This document shows, piece by piece, positions 2,216-28,580 of a stretch of 64,000 bases of DNA (the first letter of the stretch is position 1; each line of letters begins with the position of its first letter). Position numbers and translations under genes: made by a program. This stretch comes from Firmicutes bacterium HGW-Firmicutes-2. Lineage in GTDB: Bacteria; Bacillota; Clostridia; Lachnospirales; Vallitaleaceae. The stretch is taken from NCBI GenBank assembly GCA_002841495.1, contig PGZV01000003.1:62001-126000 (forward strand). Direction: 5' to 3'. The notes below the pieces were generated by a model. It was not told the origin of the DNA, did no database searches, and saw only the letters and a program-made list of their open reading frames with translations.

Positions 2216-2803
2216 TTATTTTAAATGCTTGTATGCTTCGACAAATCTCTGGCATGCTGTAATTAGAATTAATCCCGAAAAAATCATAGCCAATACATCC
2301 ACATGGTTTGTAAAAATCATCATGAATGAAAATAGGATAAAGCCTTCCGTGCGTTCAGCCAATCCCGGTTGATAATAGAAGCTTTTTTCAGTTGCTTTCT
2401 CAGAAGCAGCACCAACAGTAAGGAATATGGTCATAGAGAGGATAATAGATGAAGCCAGTATAACAAAGACTATTGGTTCATTGGAGTAACGATAACCAAT
2501 AGATATGAGCAGCGAAATTTCTACTAAGCGATCGAAGGTAACATCCATAACAGAACCAAAAGGCGACATGGTATTCGTTTTTCTTGCTATGGTTCCGTCC
2601 ATCGCATCCAATAATCCGGATAGCCATAAAATCATTACAGCTAGTATGCTTGAAAGGCTCATGACCATCATGATTGCCGGAATCAAACCAATTACCAGGG
2701 CTAAAATTGTAACCTGGTTAGCTGATAGTCCTGCTTTAATAAATATCTGGGCACATTTACCAATAAAAGGCTGTATGATCCTTCGTGCTTTTGTATCTAA
2801 CAT
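2216..2803 (-). CDS. CDP-alcohol phosphatidyltransferase family membrane protein (YnjF-like)
   Basis: 195 residues with about five hydrophobic segments. The complete catalytic signature is visible: D66-x2-D69-G70-x2-A73-R74-x8-G83-x3-D87-x3-D91. Family enzymes transfer the phosphatidyl (or similar) group of a CDP-linked lipid to an alcohol; here the acceptor is unknown. The reading frame overlaps the 3' end of the ABC ATPase gene by 7 bases and has its own AAGGAG, so it is the last gene of the transporter operon. E. coli YnjF occupies the equivalent place after ynjD-ynjE, suggesting a shared pathway rather than a housekeeping PgsA role. PgsA or PssA function is the alternative but is less likely from context. 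Confidence 0.85.
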   Translation of the reverse strand: MLDTKARRIIQPFIGKCAQIFIKAGLSANQVTILALVIGLIPAIMMVMSLSSILAVMILWLSGLLDAMDGTIARKTNTMSPFGSVMDVTFDRLVEISLLISIGYRYSNEPIVFVILASSIILSMTIFLTVGAASEKATEKSFYYQPGLAERTEGFILFSFMMIFTNHVDVLAMIFSGLILITACQRFVEAYKHLK

Positions 2804-3849
2804 GTTGGTTTCTCCTTTTTTTCAATGGCCGTCTCGAAATAGACGGCATTCTTAAAGTCAAAATTAACCTTAACTGTATCCCCCGGTTTTAACGCCTTAT
2901 GCTGTAATGTTATATGATGTATAATCTGATGCTTACATGCTATTTCATAAGTGATTTTATCACCTAAGTATGTTCTGCTTATGATGACACCTAAAGCGCC
3001 ATCATAAGCTTCATTATCTATATGGATTTCTTCAGGTCTAAACACATAGGTTAACTTTAACCCTTCTTTATGATGGGTTCGAAATGCGCCTAATGCTGTA
3101 ATAAGTCGCCCATTTTCAACATAGCCTTCTATATAATTCCGCATTCCGAAAAAATCAGCAACCGCTCTTGACGCAGGTCTCTCATAGACCTTGTCCGGTG
3201 TATCAAACTGTTGAATGGTGCCATCTAACAAAACGGCAACTTTGTCCGCCATAGAGAGTGCCTCTTCTTTATCGTGTGTAACCATAATCATGGTAATCCC
3301 AAGCTTTTTCTGAAGATCTCTTACGAATTTTTGCATATTCTTTCTAAGTACAATATCCAACTTCGAAAAAGGCTCATCCAGCAACAGCACTCTTGGCTCT
3401 ATGGCCAACGCTCTTGCAATCGCTACTCTTTGCATTTGACCTCCGGAAATCTCATTGGGACGTTTGTTTTCATGCCCACCAAGTTCCAATAATGCAACCA
3501 GTTTTTTTACTTTTTCATCTATAAGTTTTTTGTGTATGCCACGCATTTTCAGACCAAAACCAATATTTTGATTGATGGTCATATGTGGAAAAAGTAATAG
3601 ACTCTGATCCACGAGAACCGCATTTCTTTTCTCAATGGGTACTTGATCAATACATTCTTCATCAAAATAGATATTACCCCGATCCATCTGAATAAGACCG
3701 GCTATACCGTGAAGTAATGTCGTTTTCCCTGATCCGCTAGGACCAAGTAAAACTACAAGCTCACCTTCTTCAACTTCCATGTCTATATTGTGAATGACTG
3801 GATTGTCATCATATGATTTGCTTAAACGATTGATCCTAATTTTGGACAT
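2797..3849 (-). CDS. ABC transporter ATP-binding protein (PotA/YnjD type)
   Basis: 350 residues. The nucleotide-binding domain carries Walker A GPSGSGKTT (about residue 36), signature ISGGQMQRVAIARA, Walker B VLLLDEP and switch His in MVTHDKEEAL; a TOBE-like region follows from about residue 240. It energises the two permeases encoded upstream for import of the ligand of the binding protein at 5523-6752. Start ATG has AGGTGG upstream. Order binding protein, permease, permease, ATPase, then CDP-alcohol transferase matches ynjB-C-D-(E)-F of E. coli except that YnjC is there a single fused permease. Spermidine, iron or thiamine uptake are alternatives that sequence alone cannot exclude. Confidence 0.88.
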   Translation of the reverse strand: MSKIRINRLSKSYDDNPVIHNIDMEVEEGELVVLLGPSGSGKTTLLHGIAGLIQMDRGNIYFDEECIDQVPIEKRNAVLVDQSLLLFPHMTINQNIGFGLKMRGIHKKLIDEKVKKLVALLELGGHENKRPNEISGGQMQRVAIARALAIEPRVLLLDEPFSKLDIVLRKNMQKFVRDLQKKLGITMIMVTHDKEEALSMADKVAVLLDGTIQQFDTPDKVYERPASRAVADFFGMRNYIEGYVENGRLITALGAFRTHHKEGLKLTYVFRPEEIHIDNEAYDGALGVIISRTYLGDKITYEIACKHQIIHHITLQHKALKPGDTVKVNFDFKNAVYFETAIEKKEKPTC

Positions 3850-3863
3850 TATACCACCTATTT

Positions 3864-4652
3864 CTACACATAATATTTGCTACTTTTTTGATAGAAGAAA
3901 CCAACGGATTTTTCTGATATATAAACAACTAAGGCAATGGATAATATAAAAATCACACTGAGTGCCGATGCCATGGTTCTATCACCTGACTGCACAAATG
4001 GGAATAAAAACATGGCATAGGTGACAACACGTCCACCGCCGATTAAAAACGTTATAAAGTATTGACTAAAAGAAATAATATAAATCATTGACCCTGCAAT
4101 AACCATACCTGGCATTATAAGAGGTAATGTTATGTATCTAAAGGTTTGAAAAGCAGAGGCGCCAAGCACTCTTGCTTGAGCTTCAACTTTGTCACCATTA
4201 AGTTCAAATATACTCAGTAAAATCTTAACACCGTAGGGTATACCCGGTACCACATGAATGAGAATTACACCTAAATAGGTATTGGCAAGACCCAGTTTTG
4301 TAAATGTCAAATGGATGCCCATAGCCACACTCAGCATGGGCACAATCACCGGCATTAAAATAAGAACTTTGACTAGGGATTTGCCTTTAAAGTCATAAAA
4401 AGCAATGGCTCTAGCTGCTGGGATACTTATGGTCAATGTTATCACTGTCACAATCACTGAAAGCAGAATGCTTTGAAGCAATATGCCAAAAGCTTTTGTA
4501 GTTGGATGAATCGCATAAAAGTAACCTCTAAGAGAAAAATTCCTAGGGAATAACTGTGGCCAAGGCCAACTACTGGTTACACTCCAAATCATCATGACAA
4601 CAAAAGGTATTAAGATCATGAGAAGCATCATGTATTTCATTAGTTTCCGCAT
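3864..4652 (-). CDS. ABC transporter permease, second subunit (YnjC C-half-like)
   Basis: 262 residues, six predicted membrane helices, with the BPD_transp_1 EAA loop visible as QARVLGASAFQTFRYITLPLI. It forms half of the membrane channel with the permease encoded just upstream. Two adjacent ATG codons occur; the second (ending at 4652) has the better distance from GGAGG and overlaps the upstream stop by one base (TGATG), so translation is probably coupled. The spacer to the ATPase gene is only 14 bases. The ligand is unknown. Confidence 0.85.
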   Translation of the reverse strand: MRKLMKYMMLLMILIPFVVMMIWSVTSSWPWPQLFPRNFSLRGYFYAIHPTTKAFGILLQSILLSVIVTVITLTISIPAARAIAFYDFKGKSLVKVLILMPVIVPMLSVAMGIHLTFTKLGLANTYLGVILIHVVPGIPYGVKILLSIFELNGDKVEAQARVLGASAFQTFRYITLPLIMPGMVIAGSMIYIISFSQYFITFLIGGGRVVTYAMFLFPFVQSGDRTMASALSVIFILSIALVVYISEKSVGFFYQKSSKYYV

Positions 4653-5542
4653 CATGCACCTCCATATTTCTTAAGTAGCCTAAAAGCTAAAACATATAAC
4701 CCTAAGGCAATGAAAGCAAAAAAGGCGATACACATATTAATGACCATAGCATTGGCACGGTTTGCTAATTCTATGTTCGCATAATAAATATAGGCAAGAA
4801 CAGGTAAGGCTTTGGGTGTTGAAGCACCCAGTAAATGAGGAATCTCATAAGCACCAAAGGAAAAAGCAAAAAGAATCATAAAACCCGATGCTATGGTTGG
4901 GAAAAGTTGAGGCAAGAGCACATGCCTAAAAACTTGTATATGACTGGCGCCCAGATTGGCTGCAACTTTGGCATACTTATCATCCAGATTTCTTAGAATG
5001 TCAATGGTTATAAAGGTAATAAAGGGTAACCCTTTCCATAAGTAGGCGAGCATAATACCGATGCCGCTACCATCAAAAATTAACGGAGGAAAATCTGACA
5101 TGTCATGGATCAAGCCTAATCCATAAAAAATCCTGGCCAATAAACCACTTTGAATAAATAAAATAAAAATCAACAACGCTGCTATGGTATGGGGTACTAA
5201 AATCGGTCCTTTATAGACATTGACCAAACCTTTTATATGCTTGCTTTTGGTATATATGATTAAATAGGATAAGAAAACACCTAATACCACCGATAACAAG
5301 GTGGATATAAAGGAAGTATAGAGACTAAATTGAAAAGAAGAGAGAAAATCCGTATTTCGAAATATATTCTTATAATAATCTAATGAAATCTCATAAAGCC
5401 CTAAGGCCGGAAAGTATCCGAGACTCTGTAATAGTCCGAACACCAATCCAGTTATAAATATACCGATAATAAAAATCATAACCGGCATAAGCATGATATA
5501 TGGTTTTAACTTTCTTCTAAAATTAGTTGCCCGGTATTTCAT
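4652..5542 (-). CDS. ABC transporter permease, first subunit (YnjC N-half-like)
   Basis: 296 residues with six predicted membrane helices. The conserved cytoplasmic EAA-type loop is seen as YAKVAANLGASHIQVFRHVLLPQL. It pairs with the following permease. Its start lies inside the last codons of the binding-protein gene (20-base overlap); I chose ATG over the preceding GTG. The nearest purine-rich site (GAGG) is 12 bases away, so initiation probably depends on translational coupling. Part of the YnjBCD-like importer. Confidence 0.84.
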   Translation of the reverse strand: MKYRATNFRRKLKPYIMLMPVMIFIIGIFITGLVFGLLQSLGYFPALGLYEISLDYYKNIFRNTDFLSSFQFSLYTSFISTLLSVVLGVFLSYLIIYTKSKHIKGLVNVYKGPILVPHTIAALLIFILFIQSGLLARIFYGLGLIHDMSDFPPLIFDGSGIGIMLAYLWKGLPFITFITIDILRNLDDKYAKVAANLGASHIQVFRHVLLPQLFPTIASGFMILFAFSFGAYEIPHLLGASTPKALPVLAYIYYANIELANRANAMVINMCIAFFAFIALGLYVLAFRLLKKYGGA

Positions 5543-6752
5543 CACGCCATATTTCCTCTATGATTGGTACAAGATCCGCTCTCATCTCAGGCAAACGTTT
5601 TACCAGTAATTCCTCTTGAGGAACAGTCCCTTGTCCAATATCAACGGCATCAAACAATGCCATCTGCGCTTCTGTCAGCTTCAATGGATCCGTTACAGGT
5701 AGATCGCCCCATACGGAAGGGTCGTATTTGGTTACTTGTATTTCCGGTGATAAAATATGATGGATTAAAACCATGGCCGCCGCTTTATTAGGGGCATTAA
5801 AAGGCATCGCCATAAAATGTGTGTTCCCGATGGTACCTTTGTCAAATAAGAAACCTTGAGCAGTTTCTGGAAATGAACCGTCAGCAATCTTTCCGGCTAC
5901 GTGGAAAGGTGTATAGGTCATGGTCATATAGACTTCTCCGTCTTCAAACATGTTATCAAGCTGTGCATCTTCCGCAGGATATGTTACACCTTCGCGCCAC
6001 AAGTAGGGCTTTAACTCTTTTAAGTAATCCAGTGCCGGCTGTATGGTCTCTTTTAGAGTTGCTTTATCTGCAACATGATCTAAAAAAACTTCATACCCTA
6101 CAATATCATAAATAATATTTCTTACAAAGGCACTACCAGTAAAATGACTTGCATCGATATACGTCAGTTTTCCCGGATGGGCTTTTGCAAGTTCTAATAG
6201 CTCTTGATGGCCTTTTGGCAACGTAGTCAACTTCCCTGTATCACCAATAAATACCATTTGTGCTTTACCATAAGGTGCTTCATAACCTTCAACCGGTTGA
6301 CCGAAATCATACAAAACATCCGGTGATGTTCCATCTAAATACGTATTGAAGTTCGGCAATTTTTCTGTAAAGGGTCCATACAGTAAGTCGTTGTTTTTTG
6401 CACTATAAAAGTTCTCACCATTAATCCAAAGTACATCTATTGTGCCTTTACTGTTCAACTGCTTTTCATTTAATAACTTAGGTAAGTACTCAGCCGGAAC
6501 CATGGGCACTCTCTCTAGTGTAACTTCGTATTGGTCCATAAGAGATTTTGCAACAGTTTCATCCAACCATTTATTAATATCTTCACTACCACCCCACCCA
6601 TAAAAGGTTACAGTAGTACCACGTGCCGCTTCCACAATTTCATCAAAAGTCATATCCGCAATATCTTTTTCCGTGACTACTTCTTTTTTACAACCTGCTA
6701 AAACACTTATAAACACTAACATTAAGACCAGTATAACACATATTTTTTTCAT
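5523..6752 (-). CDS. ABC transporter substrate-binding lipoprotein (YnjB-like)
   Basis: 409 residues with a lipoprotein signal peptide ending in the lipobox VLAGC (Cys20). The mature start contains TVTFYGWGGSEDINKWLD, which resembles the tryptophan-rich start of the YnjB family, within the broader SBP_bac_1/6-like fold. It captures an unknown solute outside the membrane for the two permeases that follow. GGAGG lies six bases before the ATG. A hairpin-bearing spacer separates it from the VTT protein gene upstream, but direction and content suggest a single functional module. No residue allows me to predict the ligand. Confidence 0.85.
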   Translation of the reverse strand: MKKICVILVLMLVFISVLAGCKKEVVTEKDIADMTFDEIVEAARGTTVTFYGWGGSEDINKWLDETVAKSLMDQYEVTLERVPMVPAEYLPKLLNEKQLNSKGTIDVLWINGENFYSAKNNDLLYGPFTEKLPNFNTYLDGTSPDVLYDFGQPVEGYEAPYGKAQMVFIGDTGKLTTLPKGHQELLELAKAHPGKLTYIDASHFTGSAFVRNIIYDIVGYEVFLDHVADKATLKETIQPALDYLKELKPYLWREGVTYPAEDAQLDNMFEDGEVYMTMTYTPFHVAGKIADGSFPETAQGFLFDKGTIGNTHFMAMPFNAPNKAAAMVLIHHILSPEIQVTKYDPSVWGDLPVTDPLKLTEAQMALFDAVDIGQGTVPQEELLVKRLPEMRADLVPIIEEIWRDEIPGN

Positions 6753-6880
6753 ATAATCCTCCCTTTTTATCTTTAACCATTTTTACATATTTTGAGTTTA
6801 TATGCAACCTTAACACGAAGACGCTTACAGCTATGTTTCATGTCTGAAATCTGCATATGAATTCCCTAGAAGAAGATAAA

Positions 6881-6918
6881 GAATCAGACCATTACCCTAA
6901 AAGATAATAATCTGATTC
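6881..6918 (-). terminator. Hairpin in the spacer between VTT gene and binding protein
   Basis: GAATCAGA (6881-6888) pairs with TCTGATTC (6911-6918) around a 22-base loop, 18 bases after the VTT gene stop. There is no strong U-tract, so it may be a weak terminator or an mRNA-processing/attenuation element that sets the transporter genes at a different level from the upstream redox genes. Confidence 0.4.
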
Positions 6919-6936
6919 TGTTCATCCCAACTATGA

Positions 6937-7614
6937 TTATTTAATGTCGCTCATATCAATGCCTTTTTTCTTAGCTAGAATCTTAGGAATCTGTGATACA
7001 CCAAACAATAGAATCCCTGCGATAATAAGTTGTATGAATAGCTTTGTGCTAATGCCGTTTACAGCAATTTCACCTGCCATATAAGCATAGATAAATGCTC
7101 CCGGCGCCATAGTAATAGCAGAAATAATCACATACATACCAAAATTAATATTGGTCACACCATAGGCATAGTTTTGAATATTATATGGAAATACAGGTAC
7201 CAGTCTTGTAAGAATTAAGAAATCCTTACCATTTTTCTCTACGCCTGCTTCAATTTTCTTGAAAATGGCATTCTCACCGAATTTATCTACAATAAAGCCT
7301 CTTGCAAGGTATCTAGCAACAAGGAAAGCTGCTGCTGCACCAATAGTTGCACCTGTCAAAGCCAGTATCGCACCTACAATCGGTCCAAATACAACACCAC
7401 CAGTGATTGTAATAACAGATGCCGGTAAAGAAAATACAGCTGCTGCAATGAAAATTAAGATATATACAAAGTAACCCCAGAAACCGGCACGTTCAATCAT
7501 GGCTCTAAATGCATCAAAATCAGAAACCATCTCTATTAAACCTGATTTCCAAATAGCAAAAAATGCAACTGCGAGTATAGCTACAATAAGTAGCGTCCTT
7601 ACTGTTTTATTCAT
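6937..7614 (-). CDS. TVP38/TMEM64-family (VTT domain) membrane protein, YdjX/YdjZ-like
   Basis: 225 residues. After an N-terminal helix (about 5-23) comes the VTT domain with SLPASVITITGGVVFGP, a small-residue helix ALTGATIGAAAAFLVARYLARGF and the conserved RLVPVFPYNIQNYAYGVT segment; about six membrane segments in total. Family members include DedA/SNARE-associated proteins; some are lipid scramblases or transporters, but no single function is set. The start was moved to the ATG ending at 7614 because AGGAGG precedes it; a longer frame would overlap the CCG gene. Two homologues, YdjX and YdjZ, lie in the comparable E. coli cluster. Confidence 0.88.
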   Translation of the reverse strand: MNKTVRTLLIVAILAVAFFAIWKSGLIEMVSDFDAFRAMIERAGFWGYFVYILIFIAAAVFSLPASVITITGGVVFGPIVGAILALTGATIGAAAAFLVARYLARGFIVDKFGENAIFKKIEAGVEKNGKDFLILTRLVPVFPYNIQNYAYGVTNINFGMYVIISAITMAPGAFIYAYMAGEIAVNGISTKLFIQLIIAGILLFGVSQIPKILAKKKGIDMSDIK

Positions 7615-7627
7615 GATGTGTTTCCTC

Positions 7628-8416
7628 CTATGATTTGAAAGCCTTATTGATGCCGGCTTTTGATTTGTATCGGTTAAGCCATGAATTGACCGGTTTAGAC
7701 AATACATCGACAGGTGCCATGTCACCTGCTTGTACCACAGGTCCCCAAACTAAATCTAGAATATGCCATGATTTTGCACCGCCTTGTAATAAAGAAGAAC
7801 GGCATGCTGAACAATAAACCACTACATTCTCAGAGTCCAGTGTTTCTACTCTTCGCTTCATAACCTTTTTAGCCACTTCAGGATTCGCCGGTACAACCAT
7901 ACCGCCAAAACCACAACATCTGGTTTTTTCAAAAGCGTATTCCGACTCAATGTATTTATAACCTAGTTCATCAAGAATCCATCTAATCCCGTCTTGCAAA
8001 GGTCGATCATTACGTGTTGAGCAGGAATCGTGAATGGTAAATACAATATCACTGTTTTTGGCTTTATCCTTCATGCCTTCAGGAAGACCAATTAATGGCA
8101 ACACTTCCCACAAGGAGTAAGTCGGTGTCTTGCTGGCCTCATCAAATGTTAGTTTACAACTTTGACAAGCCACGATCATCGTCTCTATGCCTACTTCATC
8201 CATATCCTGTTGAAGCTGGGCAAAACGTTCTTTGAATAGGTCATATTGTCCTACCGCTTTGGTCGGTTTACCACAGCACTTTTGTACCGCTGAGAATTTT
8301 GGAAAGACAGATTTTAAATACTCTGTTGTTTTAATGACAGCTTCCGGACTATAGGAGGGTAAGCTACATCCCGGCATAAAGCCATATCGTTTGCTCTTAT
8401 CTATTGTGATAGCCAT
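7628..8416 (-). CDS. CCG-domain (HdrB/GlpC-like) iron-sulfur protein
   Basis: 262 residues carrying two cysteine-rich CCG-type motifs. The first has MPGCSLPSY, KCCGKP and ACQSCK; the second DSCS, RCCGFGG and YCSACRSSL. Such domains bind non-cubane or 4Fe-4S clusters in heterodisulfide reductase B, GlpC and LutA/GlcF-like proteins and pass electrons to thiols, disulfides or quinones. Lacking membrane segments it is cytoplasmic. It starts 2 bases after the stop of the flavoprotein gene, which carries its GGAGG, so the two are very likely an electron-transfer pair. The electron acceptor is not evident. Confidence 0.87.
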   Translation of the reverse strand: MAITIDKSKRYGFMPGCSLPSYSPEAVIKTTEYLKSVFPKFSAVQKCCGKPTKAVGQYDLFKERFAQLQQDMDEVGIETMIVACQSCKLTFDEASKTPTYSLWEVLPLIGLPEGMKDKAKNSDIVFTIHDSCSTRNDRPLQDGIRWILDELGYKYIESEYAFEKTRCCGFGGMVVPANPEVAKKVMKRRVETLDSENVVVYCSACRSSLLQGGAKSWHILDLVWGPVVQAGDMAPVDVLSKPVNSWLNRYKSKAGINKAFKS

Positions 8417-8418
8417 AT

Positions 8419-10209
8419 TTATTTACCTCCACGCTTCTTGGTTGTGAACAGTTTTGAGAAGCCAAGCATTTGATGCATTTTGATTGCTTTGTGACCCGGT
8501 ATTGGAGATTCTCCGTGGTTGGCTGCAACATAGTCTTTTCTAGCACCTATGAAAATCTTCTTCATCGGTAACTCATGAGGACATACTATGGTACAGTTAT
8601 CGCAACCATTACAGGAATAGGCCATAAGAACATTCATATCACCATCTTTAGCTAGAGGCATCATAATTTCTTTCGGACATTCACCAAAATCATTCATCAT
8701 AATACATTCTTTCATACAAAGTTTACATTCACAAGACAAACATCTTGATGATTCTTTTAAGGCTTGTTCTTCTGTGAAACCTAAATCCGCCTGTTCAAAA
8801 TCTCTTATACGTTCACGAACTGGGCGCATATTCGTATGAAGTCGCTGTAAGTTCACTGTTCCATTTGGTAAAGGAATCTCAAGATTGGTGTCATAGATTT
8901 CTTCCAGTCTAAGATCTCGACCTTCTAAGAGATCAACGCCTTGTAAACTTCTATCAATACTAATAGCTGCTTTTCTACCAAGGGCCATGGCTTCAACCAC
9001 GATGTTACTACCACAGGCATCACCTGCTACAAAGATATTTTCAACACTTGTTGCTAATGTTGCTTTGTCTACAACAAATCGACCACCACGGGTCTGTTCT
9101 AACATACCGCCACTCACATCTTCCACCAATTGACCGGCCGCCATAACCACAGTATCTACTTCAATGAAACGCTCTTCATTATGGTAAGTTGGTGCAAAGT
9201 TGCCGGCTTCATCAAAAATAGTTTTAACACGTTTCATTTTTATGCCTGTTACTTTGTTGTCCTTGGATATTATTTCTACCGGACCCCATCCAGCGTTAAA
9301 GAGAATACCTTCTTTCAATGATTCATGTATTTCCTCTTCTGAAGCAGGCAGGTTATCAAAATCCTCTAAAGAGCATTGATGCACTTCTTCTACACCAATT
9401 CTAAGGGATGATCTGGCACAATCCATCGCAACATCACCGCCACCGATGACCATAACTTTTTTGCCCGCGCCTTTGAATGCTTGAGTTAGGCTGATTTCCA
9501 TTAGATACGCAGTCGCAGCAAAGACACCTTCCGACTTATGGCCAGGCATTGGAATGATATTCCCTTTATGTGCGCCATGTGCTAATAAAACGGCATCATA
9601 GTCATTCTTAAGCTGTTCAAAAGAGATGTTTTTACCAATCTCTACACCCATTTCAAACTTCACGCCTAATTTATCTAAATATGTATATTCATAATCAATA
9701 ATATCTCTTGGTAATCGATAAGCCGGTATACCCACACGCATCATACCACCTAATACTTTGAGCTTATCATAAATCGTAACATCATAGCCTAACTTGCTTA
9801 GATTAATCGCTGCTTGAGCTCCTGCAGGACCGGCACCGATTATAGCAACACTTTTACCGTTAGCCGTTTCTTTGGTCACATCCCATAATTTTTCATCGTC
9901 CGCCTGCTCTGCCGCAAACCTTTTTAGAGCCGCTATGGATAAGGGTTGATTGTACTCAACGCCTCGCCTACAATCCATTTCACATGGATGGGCACAGATT
10001 CTTCCCAGTGTATTAGGTAAAAATAGTTGTTCTCTAATGACTTTAACTGCTTCATCATATTTCTTTTCACCGATTAAGTTCACATACTTCTTAACATCTG
10101 TGTGCATCGGACAACGGCTTTGACAAAATGCCGATGCTTCGCCCATACACTCATCAATAATTTTTTCGGCATCTTGTAGAATGCTTTCGTTAAATTTAAC
10201 CTTATTCAA
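8419..10209 (-). CDS. GltD-like FAD/NAD(P) oxidoreductase with N- and C-terminal Fe-S domains
   Basis: 596 residues from a TTG start. N-terminal Fer4_20-like domain (CQSRCPMHTDV, CAHPCEMDCRRG), then FAD-binding GAGPAGAQAA (about residue 125), NAD(P)-binding VMVIGGGDVAMDCARSSLR and a second FAD motif VFVAGDACG. A C-terminal domain has two cysteine clusters, CLSCECKLCMKEC and CNGCDNCTIVCP. This layout matches the small-subunit family of glutamate synthase/NfnB with an added ferredoxin domain and suggests NAD(P)H-linked electron transfer to the CCG protein. The TTG was chosen because a canonical GGAGG lies 8 bases upstream; in-frame ATGs 51-60 bases earlier lack a site. No GltB partner is adjacent, so glutamate synthesis is unlikely. 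Confidence 0.88.
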   Translation of the reverse strand: MNKVKFNESILQDAEKIIDECMGEASAFCQSRCPMHTDVKKYVNLIGEKKYDEAVKVIREQLFLPNTLGRICAHPCEMDCRRGVEYNQPLSIAALKRFAAEQADDEKLWDVTKETANGKSVAIIGAGPAGAQAAINLSKLGYDVTIYDKLKVLGGMMRVGIPAYRLPRDIIDYEYTYLDKLGVKFEMGVEIGKNISFEQLKNDYDAVLLAHGAHKGNIIPMPGHKSEGVFAATAYLMEISLTQAFKGAGKKVMVIGGGDVAMDCARSSLRIGVEEVHQCSLEDFDNLPASEEEIHESLKEGILFNAGWGPVEIISKDNKVTGIKMKRVKTIFDEAGNFAPTYHNEERFIEVDTVVMAAGQLVEDVSGGMLEQTRGGRFVVDKATLATSVENIFVAGDACGSNIVVEAMALGRKAAISIDRSLQGVDLLEGRDLRLEEIYDTNLEIPLPNGTVNLQRLHTNMRPVRERIRDFEQADLGFTEEQALKESSRCLSCECKLCMKECIMMNDFGECPKEIMMPLAKDGDMNVLMAYSCNGCDNCTIVCPHELPMKKIFIGARKDYVAANHGESPIPGHKAIKMHQMLGFSKLFTTKKRGGK

Positions 10210-10269
10210 TTCCTTGACCTCCAGTATAATTGTTGGTGTTGGTGTTTTGAGTTTGAGTGTCATTATCAA

Positions 10270-10363
10270 ATTAGTCTAATATCAAATTATCCGGCAATAC
10301 CTTGTTTTCAAGATGTTGCCGGATGTTTTATACATTATTCTATTAAAATACTTTTAGACTAAT
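10270..10363 (-). other. Nested hairpins between rhodanese and flavoprotein genes
   Basis: ATCCGGCAA (10289-10297) pairs perfectly with TTGCCGGAT (10316-10324), and the stem can be extended inward. An outer pair, ATTAGTCTAA (10270-10279) with TTAGACTAAT (10354-10363), encloses it and covers the rhodanese stop codon. No U-tract follows, so this is more likely a stabilising or processing element than a terminator. Confidence 0.5.
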
Positions 10364-11340
10364 TATTCTGCGCCGTTTTCAATTCTAGCAAGTTCATTGC
10401 CGTTTTCGTAAACTTCATAGCTATACTCTATCCATGAACCGTCATAATTCTTAATATTTTCATAGCCTAAAGCTTGACTTAACACCAATAAACTATGAGC
10501 ACTTCTAACGCCTGATTGACAATAAGAAATGACGCTTTTGCCTTCAAGCCCACCATAGATTTCTTTTAATTCATCTAAAGTTTTTAAAGTTGTATCTTCT
10601 GCAACAGCTGTCGTCCATGGAATGAAAACTGCACCTTCAATTTTACCAGGACCAAATGCACCATCCAGTGTTTTTTCGCCACTTTCCTCATCCGCTGCTC
10701 TCGTATCAAGAATCTCAACTTCATTATCAAGGGCTACTATAACGTCATCAAGTGTCGCTAAGAAATCTGTATTTGGATTTGGTGCTTTATAAGTAGTTGC
10801 TTCTACTGTCGGGTTACTTCCGCCTGTTGGATAACCTGCGCCAGCCCATGCATTAAGGCCGCCATCTAAGTATCTAACATCTTCATGACCCAAGCTTTTC
10901 ATTTGGAACCAAAGTCTTGCGGCATCATGATGATTGTTTGATGCATAGGTTACGATAATTGAATCTTCCGTCACACCCATAGAGGACAAAAATGCTTCCA
11001 TTTTCGCAACATCCGCACTCATACCACCATATGGATAAGCACCCTCGTCTGCTGAATAAGCACCACGCCAGAAGCTAAAAGATCCTGTAATCTGAGCATC
11101 CGCATTTTTGGGGTCAAGAGCACCTAGTACAACAACATCTCCGCCATCTTCCATAAGTTCTTTTAATTGAAAAGGTGTAATAAATGCATTCGGATTCGCG
11201 TATTGTTCAATTTTTTGACCTTGCTCTGATGAGTCAACTGCCACTTTTTGAACACCGAACATCATTTTCCAGCCCACAAATGCACCAACTGCTAATACTG
11301 CTACAACTACCAATGAAATGATTACTTTTTTATTCTTCAC
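10363..11340 (-). CDS. Membrane-anchored tandem rhodanese (sulfurtransferase), YnjE-like
   Basis: 325 residues from a GTG start with AGGAGG seven bases upstream. Residues 6-25 form an uncleaved helix or signal peptide, placing the enzyme outside the membrane. Two rhodanese domains follow. The first (about 50-170) has VTYASNNHHDAARLWF where the catalytic Cys should be, so it is inactive. The second has the active loop CQSGVRS with Cys274. Rhodaneses carry a persulfide and move sulfane sulfur. It is the first gene of the cluster leading to the Fe-S flavoprotein, CCG protein, VTT protein and YnjBCD-like importer; E. coli YnjE is the comparable exported, multi-domain sulfurtransferase. Confidence 0.88.
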   Translation of the reverse strand: MKNKKVIISLVVVAVLAVGAFVGWKMMFGVQKVAVDSSEQGQKIEQYANPNAFITPFQLKELMEDGGDVVVLGALDPKNADAQITGSFSFWRGAYSADEGAYPYGGMSADVAKMEAFLSSMGVTEDSIIVTYASNNHHDAARLWFQMKSLGHEDVRYLDGGLNAWAGAGYPTGGSNPTVEATTYKAPNPNTDFLATLDDVIVALDNEVEILDTRAADEESGEKTLDGAFGPGKIEGAVFIPWTTAVAEDTTLKTLDELKEIYGGLEGKSVISYCQSGVRSAHSLLVLSQALGYENIKNYDGSWIEYSYEVYENGNELARIENGAE

Positions 11341-11685
11341 AACTATTCCTCCTGATTTTTGTGTGTCTAAGACATTTGCCTTACCACAACTAATTTATTA
11401 ATAAAGACATGAAGAAGTCCCCTAAACAACTTCAGCCAAATTAATCATGAAATTACTACCTCGCTTACGCTTTGTTCAAAATTTCACAATCTTTATCGCT
11501 TGAAAAATGTTTTATCGTCTATGCAAAAAAATAAAACCACGATCCTATCTATCTCTCAGACTATCTGCTAACTCTCTATTCTCTGCAGCGTCTTGACAAA
11601 CATTATGGTTTTATGTATTGTAAATAAACATTAAGTTAATTTTACTTCACACTGAACACAATGTCAAGGTAAAATTGCATCATAG

Positions 11686-11724
11686 TGTAAGAATCGGTGC
11701 TCCCAAAATGTAAGAATCGGTGCT
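11686..11724. repeat. 16-bp direct repeat, period 23
   Basis: TGTAAGAATCGGTGCT occurs at 11686-11701 and again, exactly, at 11709-11724. It lies 195 bases before the transposase start; it could be a protein-binding site pair or part of an insertion sequence end. No third copy was noticed in the window. Confidence 0.7.
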
Positions 11725-11819
11725 TGCTATATTTTCTACTCTGAAATTGTGTGTGAAATTGTGTTGTTTTCGATTTACTTCAGCTAAATCTTTGTAATTA
11801 TGGTATAATATGATTGTGG

Positions 11820-11854
11820 TCAAAGTTCAACTATATAGTTTTGGCATTTTAAAC
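11820..11854 (+). repeat. Right-half fragment of the MITE-like repeat
   Basis: The segment with CAAAGTTCAACTATATAG and TTGGCATTTTAAAC closely matches the right ends of the elements at 26443-26557 and 31036-31152. The left half is absent, so it is either a decayed copy or was cut by the insertion event nearby. Confidence 0.6.
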
Positions 11855-11918
11855 TTAATGTATATATTTGAGGATTTTTTAGATTTATTTGTTAAAATTA
11901 TAACTATCGGAGGCTATA

Positions 11919-13031
11919 ATGGAAACATTTGAACAGATTAACCGACATGCTTTAATGCAACTTATCGAAAAACTCCCTTACAAGGATTTCAAGCATGCTG
12001 TTTTGCTTTTTTCAAAAATGGAAAAGTTGGATTTCAATGAAGAACTCAGCCTTATTACCGCTATTGACTTTCAACGACGATTGGAGCGATTAGGTGTTAA
12101 TGACACCTGTCCTTCTTGTGGCTCAGACCAATATACCATTCATGCCATACGAAAAGAAATTAAGCGATATAGATGTAAAGACTGTGGTAAAACCTACACC
12201 CTCTTTAGTGGTACGGTACTCGAAAAAACGAAATGGCATTGGGACATCTGGGTTCGCTTTCTGGAGCTTACCATACATGGCTACTCCTTAAAGGATATTC
12301 AGTCTACCCTTGAAACTGAGTTTGACTGTACCAATATCAACCATAAAACAGTATTCCTTTGGCGTCATAAACTGATTTATGTACTTGCTCAAATGTCTAA
12401 AATCAAATTAACCAATTATGTCCATATGGATGGTATCACCATTCGTGAGTCACAAAAAGGGTCTCGAGCTTTGGTGAATTATAAGAATTTAAAACTTGAA
12501 CGAAAACCAAGAACCGGACGGCTTTCCATAAAAAAAGAAGCCTCTGATGTCGCTTACACAACCATCGCAACCGCTGTTGACAGCTCCGGTCATTGTATTT
12601 GCAATGTTATCGGTATGGGTGATGGCGAGCCGGAAGATATTTTTAATGCATTGAAGCACTACTTAGAAGATGATAGTAATACTATTTCGCCATCTTCTAA
12701 TAAGCAGAAAACACAAAATACTATGACTGAGCCTTGTGAAAAAGCCCTATTAGCCTTTGATTATTTTAAAGAGCTTAATGTTACTGGCATGTCATCTTCG
12801 GATATGTCTCTTAAGCTTCATGCTGACATTCAAAAATTCATATGTCAAGATATGGCCAATGTTTCAACCAAATATTTGGAAGATTATCTTGGTTTTTTTA
12901 CTTATATGCGAAACTGGCGTATTGACCATGGACGATGTCCTTTATCAAAAAATGATATCGAAAGTATCTTCATTGACATCATCAAATCCGGAATTAACTA
13001 TTCCAAGAAAAGAAGCTTCGCTTCGTTATGA
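11919..13031 (+). mobile_element. Zinc-ribbon DDE transposase, IS1595-like
   Basis: 370 residues, plus strand. A zinc ribbon (CPSCGSDQ and RCKDCGKTY, about residues 65-90) is followed by LFSGTVLEKTKWHW, a typical IS1595/IS1-type region. Then come a candidate first catalytic Asp in VHMDG, an acidic AYTTIATAVDSSGH strand and a C-terminal STKYLEDYLGFFTYMRNW segment characteristic of this transposase group. GGAGG precedes the ATG by five bases. The last residues (KKRSFASL) are encoded inside the 125-bp repeat that follows, so the original C-terminus was probably replaced. Inverted ends were not found; the element may be immobile. Confidence 0.8.
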
Positions 13032-13253
13032 GCTCTGCTCATATTTCTGAACGCTTCGACTGGAAAGGTCTTTGACGTATTCTGCTATGCTTTAAAGCTG
13101 AATGCTAGAGTATGACTTTCCTTGAGAACAAGAAAAGAAGCTTCGCTTCGTTATGAGCTCTGCTCATATTTCTGAACGGTTCGACTGGAAAGGTCTTTGA
13201 CGTATTCTGCTATGCTTTAAAGCTGAATGCTAGAGTATGACTTTCCTTGAGAA
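13004..13253. repeat. Tandem duplication of a 125-bp hairpin-rich repeat
   Basis: Two head-to-tail copies, 13004-13128 and 13129-13253, differ at one noticed position (ACGCTTCG versus ACGGTTCG). Each contains CTTCGCTTCG, a GGAAAGGTC/GACTTTCC pair and an imperfect inner palindrome around GCTTTAAAGC. Related single copies are at 22867-22966 and 31229-31300. The first copy supplies the stop codon of the transposase. Confidence 0.9.
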
Positions 13254-13295
13254 GGATAAACAAAAAAAGCCTAAATAGGCTTTTTTTGTTTATCC
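13254..13295 (-). terminator. Bidirectional terminator overlapping the end of tcdA
   Basis: A perfect 19-bp stem (13254-13272 with 13277-13295) and a four-base loop, with A7/T7 runs inside the arms. It overlaps the last codons and stop of tcdA, so the C-terminal residues DKQKKPI are encoded in the stem. It also closes the transposase side. Confidence 0.88.
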
Positions 13296-14038
13296 TTTAT
13301 TAAGTCTTTTACAACCTCTGATGCTATAATCATACCTGCAACAGATGGAACAAAAGAAACGCTTCCAGGGATGGACCGCCTCTGATCACAGGTCCTGTCC
13401 TTGTTCGGACAAATACAGTCTGTCGTACAATCACTACCAATATCTATCGGTTTAACAGGTATTTCTTTTGAATAAACAACCTTAAGCTTTTTGGCACCTC
13501 TTTTTCGCAACTCTTTTCTCATGACTTTCGCAAGAGGACATACACTGGTTTTATAAATATCGGACACTTCAAGCATGGTAGGGTTAAGTTTATTACCAGT
13601 TCCCATAGAAGCCATCAAAGGTATATTTTGTTCTTGACATCGTAAAACCAGATCTATTTTAGCGCTCACCATATCAATGGCATCCACCACATAATCCGCG
13701 TCTTTTGGAATAATCCGATCTGCTGATTCCTTATTGTACAAATAGGGATGGGTTTCTACAATCGCCTTTGGATTGATGGATAAGATTCTGGACTTCATAA
13801 CCTCTACTTTTGCCATTCCGACGGTTTGCCTTGTGGCTTGCACCTGACGGTTAATATTGGTCAAACATACCTCATCATCATCACAAAGAACAAAGTACCC
13901 AACTCCTGAGCGGGCAAGGCCTTCTGCAACATAAGAGCCAACGCCGCCAATCCCCAGTATCACCACTTTACTTTGCTTTAGTTTTTCTAATCCTTCTGTA
14001 CCAATGACCATTTCAGTTCTTGAAAATGCATGTAACAT
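13271..14038 (-). CDS. tcdA: tRNA threonylcarbamoyladenosine dehydratase (TcdA/YgdL, ThiF-MoeB family)
   Basis: 255 residues. Rossmann motif GIGGVGSYVAEGLARSG (about 27-43) binds ATP; the E1-like adenylation core continues with DDDEVCLTNINRQ and YVVDAIDMVSAKIDL. The C-terminus has the TcdA-type cysteine region CTTDCICPN and GSVSFVPSVAGMIIASEVV. TcdA cyclises t6A37 of tRNA to ct6A using ATP, usually with a CsdAE or CsdL partner not seen here. The start was chosen at the ATG ending at 14038, which has AGGAG seven bases upstream; nine upstream residues are discarded. It is a single gene flanked by a strong terminator. Confidence 0.92.
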   Translation of the reverse strand: MLHAFSRTEMVIGTEGLEKLKQSKVVILGIGGVGSYVAEGLARSGVGYFVLCDDDEVCLTNINRQVQATRQTVGMAKVEVMKSRILSINPKAIVETHPYLYNKESADRIIPKDADYVVDAIDMVSAKIDLVLRCQEQNIPLMASMGTGNKLNPTMLEVSDIYKTSVCPLAKVMRKELRKRGAKKLKVVYSKEIPVKPIDIGSDCTTDCICPNKDRTCDQRRSIPGSVSFVPSVAGMIIASEVVKDLIKDKQKKPI

Positions 14039-14137
14039 ATCTTTACTCCTAATCACTATTGACAATTTATCCTATCATAATGTAACAGAATTCCCACCAT
14101 TTGTCACATGAATTTTTGCTTGTTTAATGGCTATACA

Positions 14138-15901: not shown

Positions 15902-15911
15902 AGCCGGTCCC

Positions 15912-26633: not shown

Positions 26634-27626
26634 TTAGAGATTGTTAATCTTTTTTACCAAATGACAGGCAACAAAGTGGTCCGGTAAGACTTCCACAAGC
26701 TCAGGTGTCACTTCATCACAGATTTCCTCACAATAACGGCATCTGGAACTAAAGCGGCAACCTACTTTGGGATCAATCGGACTTCTAACATCCCCTTCTA
26801 ACACAATTCGGCCCTCTTTTTTAGCACGTGGATCCGGAATCGGTATGGAGGACAACAACGCTTTGGTATAAGGATGTAATGGCTTTTCATACAACTCATT
26901 GCTTTCGGCAATTTCCATCATATGACCTAAATACATTACGCCTATACGATCTGAAATATGCTTAACCATAGACAAATCATGTGCAATAAACAAATAGGTT
27001 AAACCTAGCTCTTTTTGTAGATCCTCGAGCATATTTACCACTTGCGCCTGTATGGAAACATCTAGGGCAGAAATCGGTTCATCACAAATAATCAAATCCG
27101 GTTCAATGGCTATGGCTCTTGCGATACCGATTCTTTGTCGTTGCCCACCTGAGAACTCATGAGGATAACGACTGGCATGTTCTTTTTTAAGTCCAACGCG
27201 TGTCAGCAAGTCATGAATACGTTCCAGTCTTGCCTCACCCTTAATATTTGTATGTATGTCAAGGCCTTCTCCAATAATATCGGCAATGGTCATACGTGTG
27301 TTCAAGGATGCATAAGGGTCTTGGAAAATCATTTGAATGCGTTTTCGATATTTAAGCATCTCTTTTGGTGAGATATTGGTAATATCTTCACCATCATAGA
27401 TAATCTTTCCACCCGTTGGCTCATACAATCTTACAATAGCTCTGCCTGTTGTGGATTTACCGCAACCGGATTCTCCTACCAATCCAAATGTCTCACCTTT
27501 ATGTATCACAAAAGAAATACCATCCACTGCTTTTAAATATTTACGTTTACTTTCAATCATACTGTGTTTGACGGTGAAATATTTCTTAAGTCCTTTTATC
27601 TCTAATAATACTTTCCTATCCGGCAT
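26634..27626 (-). CDS. oppF: Oligopeptide ABC transporter ATP-binding protein OppF
   Basis: 330 residues. Walker [18 protein letters not shown] (about 46), Q-loop [11 protein letters not shown], signature [16 protein letters not shown], Walker [15 protein letters not shown], switch His in [10 protein letters not shown]. The C-terminal oligo_HPY region ends with a cysteine group [14 protein letters not shown] that in this family can hold a 4Fe-4S cluster. Its start overlaps the end of oppD by 11 bases. OppF normally works as a heterodimer with OppD; here OppD is broken, so the state of the transporter is uncertain. Confidence 0.93.
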
Positions 27627-28580
27627 CTATATCACATCCTTTTATATAACCTTCAACTTCCGGTGCATCTACATGAATTAACCAACATGCTGATGTGTGT
27701 CCATCACTGATTTTATACGTCGGTGCCATTTCTTCTTTACATATTTCCATCGCATGTGGGCATCTGTATGAGAAAGGACAGCCTTTAGGTGGATTCAGTA
27801 GATCCGGTGGTGAACCCGGTATCGGAACCAGTCTCTCTTTTGCAGCTGCATCCATACGGGGTACCGAGTTCATTAAGCCTCTTGTATAAGGATGTTGAGG
27901 ACTATGAAAAATCTCATCTACAGTGCCTTTTTCCATAATCATACCACCATACATAACAATCATATGCTTACAGGTTTGGCTAATTTTTTCATAATCTCCA
28001 GTATTTGCGCTTGAATCGTTACATCTAGTGCTGTTGTAGGTTCATCTGCTATTAAAAGTTTTGGATTACATGATAATGCCGTTGCAATCATGGCTCTTTG
28101 ACGCATACCACCTGAAAACTCATGAGGATAAGCGTTGATTCTTTTCTCAGGTTCAGGAATACCAACCATACGTAGTTTATCTATTGCAATCTCAAGTGCC
28201 TTTTTCTTAGATACTTTTTGATGCCTTCTTATGACTTCAACCATCAGATTTCTAATTGTAAATACCGGATTTAGAGAGGTCATCGGATCTTGGAAGATCA
28301 TAGAAATCTCTTTACCACGAATTTTACACATTTCTTCATTGCTTTTAGTGGAAATAACTTCGCCATTAAAGATGATTTCTCCACCCTTAATCTTTCCCGG
28401 ATGGTCGATGAGTCCCATTATGGATAGCGCTGTTACACTCTTTCCACTACCGGATTCACCAACGATACCAAGAATATCCCCTTTTTCCATAGTAAAACTA
28501 TTCCCACGTACAGCTTGCACTTCACCCATATGGGTGTAAAAGGATGTACTTAGATTTTTAACTTCTAGAATTTTACTCAT
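27616..28580 (-). pseudogene. oppD: oppD, disrupted by a small deletion and frameshift
   Basis: Two reading frames together encode an OppD-type ATPase. 27960-28580 gives the first 206 residues with Walker [21 protein letters not shown], signature [15 protein letters not shown] and Walker [14 protein letters not shown], then [11 protein letters not shown] followed by six off-frame residues and a TGA. 27616-27963 gives the rest, from IVMYGGMIMEKGTVDEIF to the C-terminal oligo_HPY region with CPFSYRCP. The approximately 19 residues that normally join them, including the switch-loop Thr-His-Asp, are missing, and the deletion length is not a multiple of three. The remaining link in the second frame reads [13 protein letters not shown]. 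Either a real inactivating mutation or an assembly error. The ATGA overlap could allow separate translation of the second piece, but ATP hydrolysis would be impaired. Confidence 0.85.

Follow-up and report, generated by a model that had tools for sequence, protein, structure and literature searches.

A cluster of nine genes was analysed in a stretch of 64,000 nucleotides from Firmicutes bacterium HGW-Firmicutes-2 (contig PGZV01000003.1, positions 62,001 to 126,000), referred to below as the window, whose own numbering is used throughout. The nine open reading frames (ORFs), at 2216-11340, all lie on the minus strand, and ORF calls and Pfam matches agree with the initial annotation in their order (rhodanese, GltD-like Fe-S flavoprotein, CCG-domain protein, VTT membrane protein, solute-binding lipoprotein, two permeases, importer ATPase and CDP-alcohol phosphotransferase, the last called here the CDP enzyme; Table 1) and in their tight or overlapping spacing. 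The gaps are 93 bp (rhodanese/GltD), 2 bp (GltD/CCG), 13 bp (CCG/VTT), 184 bp (VTT/binding protein) and 14 bp (permease/ATPase), and the overlaps 23 bp (binding protein/permease), 4 bp (permease/permease) and 7 bp (ATPase/CDP enzyme).

Table 1. Genes and other features located in the window.
Feature	Position	Strand	Match or description
Membrane-anchored tandem rhodanese, YnjE-like	10363..11340	-	Pfam Rhodanese, two stretches, 7e-21
GltD-like Fe-S flavoprotein, C-terminal ferredoxin motifs	8419..10269	-	Fer4_20, Pyr_redox_2, Fer4_17
HdrB-like protein, two CCG domains	7628..8416	-	Pfam CCG, E 7e-19
VTT/DedA membrane protein, YdjX relative	6937..7614	-	VTT_dom, 2e-26
Terminator-like hairpin, VTT/binding-protein gap	6880..6919	-	18-pair stem with 4 G-C pairs, then T-rich tail
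Solute-binding lipoprotein, YnjB family	5523..6752	-	NF008633, 457 bits (cut-off 203); SBP_bac_8
Permease, counterpart of YnjC N-terminal half	4652..5545	-	BPD_transp_1
Permease, counterpart of YnjC C-terminal half	3864..4655	-	BPD_transp_1
Importer ATPase with TOBE domain, YnjD-like	2797..3849	-	ABC_tran and TOBE_2
CDP-alcohol phosphotransferase, YnjF type	2216..2803	-	CDP-OH_P_transf, 3e-16
Transposase-like ORF	11919..13031	+	
OppD-like ATPase gene	27621..28580	-	

The rhodanese has a CQSGVR loop in its second domain and an N-terminal membrane anchor (both by eye), and scores below the cut-offs of the NCBIfam models for ExtH and 3-mercaptopyruvate sulfurtransferase. The GltD-like protein, with CxxCxxxC at residue 515 and CxxCxxCxxxC at residue 553, matches PRK12771 and NF045663 below both cut-offs and is likely an NAD(P)H-linked electron donor. 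The CCG protein, which matches profile positions 419-638 of NF045663 with 202 bits (cut-off 530), is likely an Fe-S subunit for disulfide chemistry; it contains both C...CCG parts of what we take to be the HdrB-type pattern (C...CCG...CxxC), and the ten motif cysteines are invariant in all 34 members of its family. The ORF list begins the VTT gene at a GTG at 7725, but the protein read from the start in Table 1 (225 residues) aligns with YdjX from residue 1. The binding protein carries the lipobox LAGC (by eye), and its structural model has a mean pLDDT of 93.3. In the CDP enzyme the catalytic motif is complete (D66, D69, G70, A73, R74, G83, D87 and D91).

The initial annotation had proposed a Gram-positive counterpart of the ydjXYZ-ynjABCDEF group of Escherichia coli, for which we know of no settled function; a literature search by gene names found nothing on the function of the whole group, and YnjE is reportedly treated by itself in papers such as PMC10215317 and PMC12989499. 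When the nine window proteins were compared with the nine E. coli K-12 proteins, the proposal held in outline. Over 222 residues the VTT protein shares 44% identity with YdjX (E 9e-72), and it shares 26% with YdjZ; the binding protein (37% to YnjB, E 7e-72), ATPase (34% to YnjD, E 3e-34), CDP enzyme (25% to YnjF, E 2e-17) and rhodanese (26% to YnjE, E 7e-14) each have their counterpart. YnjC had been described as split into two permeases, and each permease does align with an opposite half of it, the first with residues 36-237 (4e-7) and the second with 370-508 (2e-6). YdjY and YnjA have no match below E 1 among the nine window proteins, and there is one VTT gene only; YdjY is present in 7 of the 89 YnjB loci defined below. 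Judged from these matches and from the score on the YnjB model, the window cluster is a true relative of the E. coli ydjX-ynjBCDEF group.

Two families, spermidine importers and PgsA, had been named as possible better matches, and neither is preferred by the models. Among NCBIfam models (E up to 0.001) the YnjB model is the sole match of the binding protein, and the CDP enzyme scores 102.4 bits on archaetidylinositol-phosphate (AIP) synthase (cut-off 180), 64 bits on a second model of phosphatidylinositol-phosphate (PIP) and AIP synthases (cut-off 170) and 31.8 bits on PgsA (cut-off 109), reaching none of these cut-offs. An ordinary polyamine importer with neighbours assembled by chance is thus extremely unlikely. 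The binding protein does have weak profile matches to PotD- and SpuE-type structures (polyamine binders, 8e-5), its best structure-profile match being an unnamed Clostridium perfringens solute-binding protein (2e-8), but the ATPase falls below the PotA cut-offs (303 of 482 bits on PRK09452, 285.5 of 355.6 on TIGR01187) and the neighbourhood recurs across classes.

In folding, the 184-bp VTT/binding-protein gap surpasses all 200 shuffled sequences (z -3.77). Terminator-like sites over the whole scan are not enriched (3, against 6.0 in shuffles), the case being made by the one long stem in this gap, which may divide the cluster into two transcription units: rhodanese-GltD-CCG-VTT and binding protein-permeases-ATPase-CDP enzyme. 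Promoter-like sites in the window scan number 32, against 35.5 in shuffles.

The distribution of the cluster was followed in nested samples. An even draw of 398 Firmicute genomes was searched with the YnjB model (cut-off 203) and with profiles; from this draw and the window's kin 70 genomes were picked, 35 with YnjB (30 of them from the draw) and 35 scored as lacking it, the latter chosen by hand and not at random. Neighbourhoods were compared, with ORFs clustered, in 119 YnjB-family loci comprising the window, E. coli, 37 fetched stretches and 80 named contigs, which are the best 80 of 565 confirmed relatives and lean to close ones; in two of the 119 (L084 and L085) the binding protein is below the YnjB cut-off. 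Removal of binding proteins 95% identical left 111 loci and removal at 80% left 89, of which 64 have at least 6 kb on both sides (good-flank loci). Loci were counted from ORFs that we called ourselves and grouped by BLAST, up to 9 kb from the binding protein, and contig ends hide genes; loci and genomes are related to each other, and p values overstate their independence.

YnjB and the CDP enzyme are closely linked. YnjB exceeds its cut-off in 30 of the 398 genomes and the YnjF-type CDP enzyme profile is found in 23, 21 of them YnjB-positive (Fisher p 8e-26, genomes taken as independent); the remaining two, G060 and G239, contain decayed cluster fragments. In the 70-genome set, 27 genomes have one strong YnjF-like match each (G259 has two much weaker ones as well), and 25 of the 27 are YnjB-positive. 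The match lies within about 4 kb of YnjB in 24 of these 25 and, in the other (G265), at the end of a broken contig carrying further cluster genes; a simple estimate from lengths puts 0.2 of 27 within 10 kb of a given gene by chance. G399 and G401, first scored as YnjB-negative, have a YnjF-like gene beside importer permeases on short contigs. Before redundancy removal, the two genes are co-directional and contiguous in 51 of the 67 loci that have both, and in L064 the CDP gene lies between the two permeases. The neighbourhood recurs in other classes and phyla, as the initial annotation had expected: YnjB relatives, among the best 80 of 565, come from Bacilli, Clostridia, Tissierellia, Erysipelotrichia and Negativicutes, and further from Spirochaetia, Synergistia, Desulfovibrionia and Coriobacteriia.

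Some loci differ in other respects. Beside ATPase and permease genes, G239 (L181) has CDP, VTT, CCG and rhodanese genes as short fragments, and G060 (L182) has CDP and binding-protein genes in the same state. Petrocella sp. FN5 has a second, divergent YnjBCD importer (L140/L081); no partner family occurs in the 6.8 kb that the stretch covers downstream of it, and upstream the stretch reaches 0.7 kb. A PucR-type regulator family occurs in four YnjB loci (L050, L057, L065 and L111).

Four additional families recur in YnjB loci, namely a nucleoside hydrolase (PF01156), an APH-like kinase, a CofC-like DUF2064 protein (TIGR04282) and a family-2 glycosyltransferase (GT2, TIGR04283), and the first of them and the CDP enzyme exclude each other. 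In 111 loci the CDP enzyme occurs in 60, the hydrolase in 31 and both in none (p 2.6e-14), and the same holds for the good-flank loci (34, 19 and none). Any of the four families is present in 36 of the 111 loci, of which two have the CDP enzyme: L055, with kinase, DUF2064 and GT2 genes, and L067, with a member of the GT2 cluster, in whose genome TIGR04283 has no match at E 1e-40. At the level of genomes, the hydrolase profile is found in 14 of the 398, 8 of them YnjB-positive (p 9e-7), and in no genome among the 23 that have the CDP enzyme. The 30 YnjB-positive genomes comprise 21 with the CDP enzyme, 8 with the hydrolase, none with both and one (G043, L062) with the kinase/DUF2064/GT2 set alone; in this count the G083 hydrolase and YnjB are on different contigs (no partner gene is seen in L183), and the G177 hydrolase lies about 9 kb from YnjB and has one in-frame stop. 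BLAST clustering overlooked the hydrolase of G148 (L075), and that of G404 is further off; neither locus has the CDP enzyme.

A quickly built tree of 96 binding proteins, with long branches flagged (E. coli among them), requires 10 changes of the CDP label, 7 of which follow necessarily from starred branches; shuffles require 24.5. The label clusters on this tree, but among related binding proteins the module has changed repeatedly, at least seven times, which argues for a solute class shared by both modules. In our reading, two chemistries act on a single class of imported solute, and the class may include different solutes. The modular swap is a new, testable result: because the replacement of the CDP enzyme by the hydrolase, often accompanied by the kinase/DUF2064/GT2 set, is exclusive, the solute would be narrowed to what both chemistries can handle, and sugars and ribosides can be the first candidates in ligand tests.

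The hydrolase retains the family's metal- and ribose-binding residues, with Trp-Asp where the family usually has His-Asp; the roles of these residues, like the catalytic loop of APH kinases, are presumed here. In L082/L174, where YnjB is over its cut-off, the hydrolase gene is accompanied by genes for DhaK-like, sugar-isomerase-like, LacD-type aldolase and epimerase-DhaL fusion proteins; the aldolase exceeds its cut-off, and with the sulfoquinovose isomerase model the isomerase-like protein scores 119 of 700 bits. L075, also over the YnjB cut-off, has the hydrolase beside the importer, isomerase-like and epimerase-like proteins of the clusters seen in L082/L174, transketolase halves (by eye), an aldehyde ferredoxin oxidoreductase and an ADP-ribosylglycohydrolase. 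These neighbours point to a sugar or riboside as the solute. They would also suit a salvage of ribosides or nucleosides for carbon, in which the importer feeds the hydrolase or other enzymes and the window CDP enzyme serves another substrate. The sugar-catabolic genes of L082 and L075, the ribose residues of the hydrolase and the loci that have the hydrolase only (L100, L158 and others) speak for such a salvage; however, no sugar-catabolic gene adjoins the window cluster (by eye) and the exclusive replacement by the CDP enzyme would need another cause, and we regard it as unlikely. In one locus (L068, G124) the hydrolase gene has an in-frame TGA; selenocysteine was rejected there, as the TGA sits at a conserved Trp position and a nonsense change is likelier.

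The catalytic motif of the CDP enzyme, including its four Asp residues, is complete in all 67 family members. Its model (mean pLDDT 88.8) fits the structures of PIP synthase, AF2299 and DIPPS best (Z about 20, root-mean-square deviation 2.2-2.6) and cholinephosphotransferases (Z 13-16), PGP synthase (14) and PS synthase (12) less well. From sequence and model, the enzyme is probably a phosphatidyl transferase acting on a polyol-like acceptor, and not a PIP synthase. The presumed conjugating enzymes are accompanied by VTT and redox genes: VTT is present in 53 of 63 loci with the CDP enzyme, GT2 or DUF2064 and in 6 of 26 loci without them, redox genes in 54 of 63 versus 6 of 26, and rhodanese in 30 of 63 versus 4 of 26. 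A gene resembling the MprF flippase occurs in 6 of 89 loci, all six with the CDP enzyme. Passages in PMC10127716, which do not mention YdjX by name, describe the COG0398 subfamily of DedA proteins as proposed phospholipid scramblases whose commonest fusion partners are pyridine-nucleotide-disulfide oxidoreductases and link the subfamily with aerobic metabolism, and parts of PMC7818093 and PMC3836016 group YdjX and YdjZ with its TMEM41B/Slr0305 branch. From these lipid-related facts we infer a lipid that bears the solute. Further genes near VTT were seen in some loci. L126 has a MerA-like flavoprotein fused to a C-terminal DUF1499 beside VTT (7331-9217 of that locus); other Planococcus loci have similar flavoprotein C-termini (by eye), and L149 has a separate DUF1499 gene. 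In the spirochaete-type loci L147, L150-L152 and L162, DUF547 or DUF3047 is found near the VTT, flavoprotein and CDP genes.

The redox partner is likewise variable. In 25 loci a MerA-like flavoprotein, whose CxxxxC pair is invariant, adjoins core genes without a break, and when any member within 9 kb is counted over the 89 loci, 1 of the 18 loci with the flavoprotein also has CCG (p 0.005). Among the best 80 of 565 relatives, the flavoprotein occurs in 23 of 31 Bacilli and 4 of 5 Spirochaetia loci, and CCG in 10 of 27 Clostridia and 3 of 4 Tissierellia loci; 14 of the 27 Clostridia loci have no redox gene. If a stable enzyme had replaced an oxygen-labile one, this would fit Bacilli versus Clostridia, and less clearly the spirochaetes or G401.

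These genes also bear on a sulfur or selenium system that would import an organosulfur compound, the rhodanese and HdrB-like pair drawing sulfane sulfur from it and the CDP enzyme forming a side branch. Rhodanese is found in 34 of 89 loci and the HdrB-like CCG protein in 29; YeeE/YedE-like pairs occur in 8, five of them with a LysR-type regulator, a representative of which scores 233 of 250 bits on a selenium-associated model; L139 has a TauE/SafE gene beside the binding-protein gene; and E. coli YnjE is annotated as a molybdopterin synthase sulfurtransferase. SelD exceeds its cut-off in 33 of the 35 YnjB-positive and 18 of the 35 other picked genomes (34 of 37 and 17 of 33 after reassignment of G399 and G401), a sample that is not random and follows taxonomy. 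However, the importer is accompanied more often by the CDP enzyme (46 of 89 loci) than by rhodanese, 12 of the 89 loci have the MerA-like flavoprotein, VTT and the CDP enzyme without rhodanese or CCG, and SelD is absent over its cut-off from G169 and G268, which have VTT and CDP genes at their YnjB loci, and from G401, which has the cluster. With SelD missing over the cut-off from these three genomes, selenium as the common factor is rejected, and selenium handling, which the initial annotation had allowed for, is not required; a system built around sulfur seems to us rather unlikely.

The families TIGR04282 and TIGR04283 are named for arsenosugar biosynthesis, and MerA-like proteins and VTT stand beside them; the GT2 protein of L155 scores 219 against a cut-off of 182 and the DUF2064 protein of L097 177 against 134 (NCBIfam). 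The handling of arsenosugar-like or other metalloid sugars is nevertheless very unlikely. TIGR04283 is found in 6 of the 35 YnjB-positive and none of the 35 other genomes, a link qualified by G133, outside the 70-genome set, which has a GT2 relative without YnjB; no arsenic gene is found in the window cluster (by eye); and ArsS is not found over its cut-off in any of the 70 genomes, which include the 35 YnjB-positive ones and the window's own. An ArsS-based arsenosugar pathway is rejected on this last count.

These observations are brought together in a mechanism that we put forward tentatively, as somewhat short of probable. The YnjB lipoprotein and its ABC importer would take up a small polyhydroxylated solute (sugar-, riboside- or nucleoside-like), which the CDP enzyme would join to the phosphatidyl group of CDP-diacylglycerol to yield an unusual phospholipid, and the VTT protein would redistribute this solute-bearing lipid between the leaflets. 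Sulfane-sulfur or disulfide chemistry in this pathway would fall to the membrane-anchored rhodanese together with the GltD/HdrB-like pair, which is NAD(P)H-linked, and a MerA-like flavoprotein would take the place of the pair in some lineages. In other lineages the lipid step may be performed by the kinase, the CofC-like nucleotidyltransferase and the GT2 enzyme, usually with the nucleoside hydrolase opening the solute first. Of all this, the gene content, the family membership, the exclusive modules, their repeated exchange and the catalytic residues are observed, and uptake as the direction of transport, the type of solute, the lipid product, its scrambling and the part played by sulfur are inferred. 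That this amounts to a widespread, undescribed bacterial route, by which a scavenged sugar- or nucleoside-type solute becomes a lipid head group through either YnjF transfer or the hydrolase-kinase-nucleotidyltransferase-glycosyltransferase set, with VTT moving the product and the HdrB- or MerA-like module included, is possible but on balance doubtful. If true, it would add a head-group scavenging pathway and give a substrate context to TMEM41B-like bacterial VTT proteins.

Several observations weigh against this mechanism. The hairpin lies between the redox/VTT genes and the importer/CDP genes and could split them. By fold, the binding protein resembles binders of polyamines, iron, sugars, sugar phosphates and glycerophosphodiesters without distinction: Foldseek places those of polyamine, iron and glucose-6-phosphate high, and maltose, glycerophosphocholine, sulfoquinovosyl-glycerol, dinucleotide and other binders are tied (top 50 of 1000 chains; Z 26.6-28.6, root-mean-square deviation about 3). 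Assignment of a ligand from fold was set aside, as these 50 chains cover many ligand classes. In PIP synthase, passages of PMC4634129 and PMC6506517 state, two arginines (R155 and R195 of the Mt enzyme) hold the phosphate of inositol phosphate; in the CDP family alignment the R155 equivalent is present in 0 of 67 members and that of R195 in all 67, the residue in the place of R94 being Arg in 62. Inositol phosphate was rejected as the acceptor, with one of the two phosphate arginines lost. G362, the genome of L055, combines the CDP enzyme with the kinase/DUF2064/GT2 set. The hydrolase occurs without the CDP enzyme, GT2 or DUF2064 in 11 of 89 loci (8 of the 64 good-flank loci, 6 of these 8 also without VTT); since such loci mostly lack VTT, catabolism may be the sole role of some YnjB importers, and their solutes may not all be the same. 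The MerA-like partner in spirochaete loci (4 of 5 among the best 80 of 565 relatives) and in G401 weakens oxygen as the reason for the redox swap.

The remaining counter-evidence concerns the partners in genomes that lack the importer. In the 398-genome draw, the hydrolase subfamily is present in six genomes without YnjB over the cut-off, and L176 (G133) has a rhodanese-VTT-VTT-CCG-DUF2064-APH-GT2-hydrolase set (9146-17226 of that locus) without a YnjBCD importer. About 3 kb from this set, on the same strand, there is an ECF-like transporter (by eye). Of the other loci without YnjB, L177 and L180 have a rhodanese gene beside the hydrolase, L180 also having a distant DUF2064 relative, and in the stretches fetched for L175, L178 and L179 no close partner is seen. 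The single pathway suggested by the initial annotation stays plausible as a whole, but it is modular: the rhodanese-VTT-CCG part can occur without the importer (L176), and in many genomes other enzymes stand in for the presumed lipid step.

Other features of the window are few. Upstream of the rhodanese gene and on the opposite strand lies a transposase-like ORF, presumably an IS1595-like transposase. An OppD-like ATPase gene stops after 206 codons and its remainder has in-frame stops, so that it looks interrupted in the present assembly. The window contains no tRNA gene, and an Rfam scan of it gave nothing over the gathering score.

Among known systems, the PIP and AIP synthases share with the CDP enzyme the fold, the catalytic motif and the Arg equivalent to R195, but the CDP enzyme falls below their cut-offs, lacks the second phosphate arginine and has, in most members, a motif of its own, KSFYYQxGLxERTE. 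The NF045663 dicluster-binding oxidoreductase resembles the GltD-like protein in its N-terminal part and the CCG protein in its C-terminal part; in the window these are two genes, both below the cut-off of 530. The VTT protein, close to YdjX, resembles the COG0398 DedA proteins, and many YnjB loci supply an oxidoreductase partner in the manner of the fusions described in part of PMC10127716, whereas the partner in the window is the GltD/HdrB-like pair. The closest comparison is with E. coli, where ydjXYZ-ynjABCD and ynjE are given in a portion of PMC3688515 as direct FNR-activated targets. The initial annotation had set the cluster beside the full E. coli group, and this stands for YdjX, YnjB, both halves of YnjC, YnjD, YnjE and YnjF and fails, among the nine genes, for YdjY, YnjA and the second VTT protein; the window differs further in its split YnjC, its changed gene order and the added GltD/HdrB-like pair. 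Finally, E. coli ynjF lies on the opposite strand from its group, whereas the window CDP gene is co-directional with the other eight.

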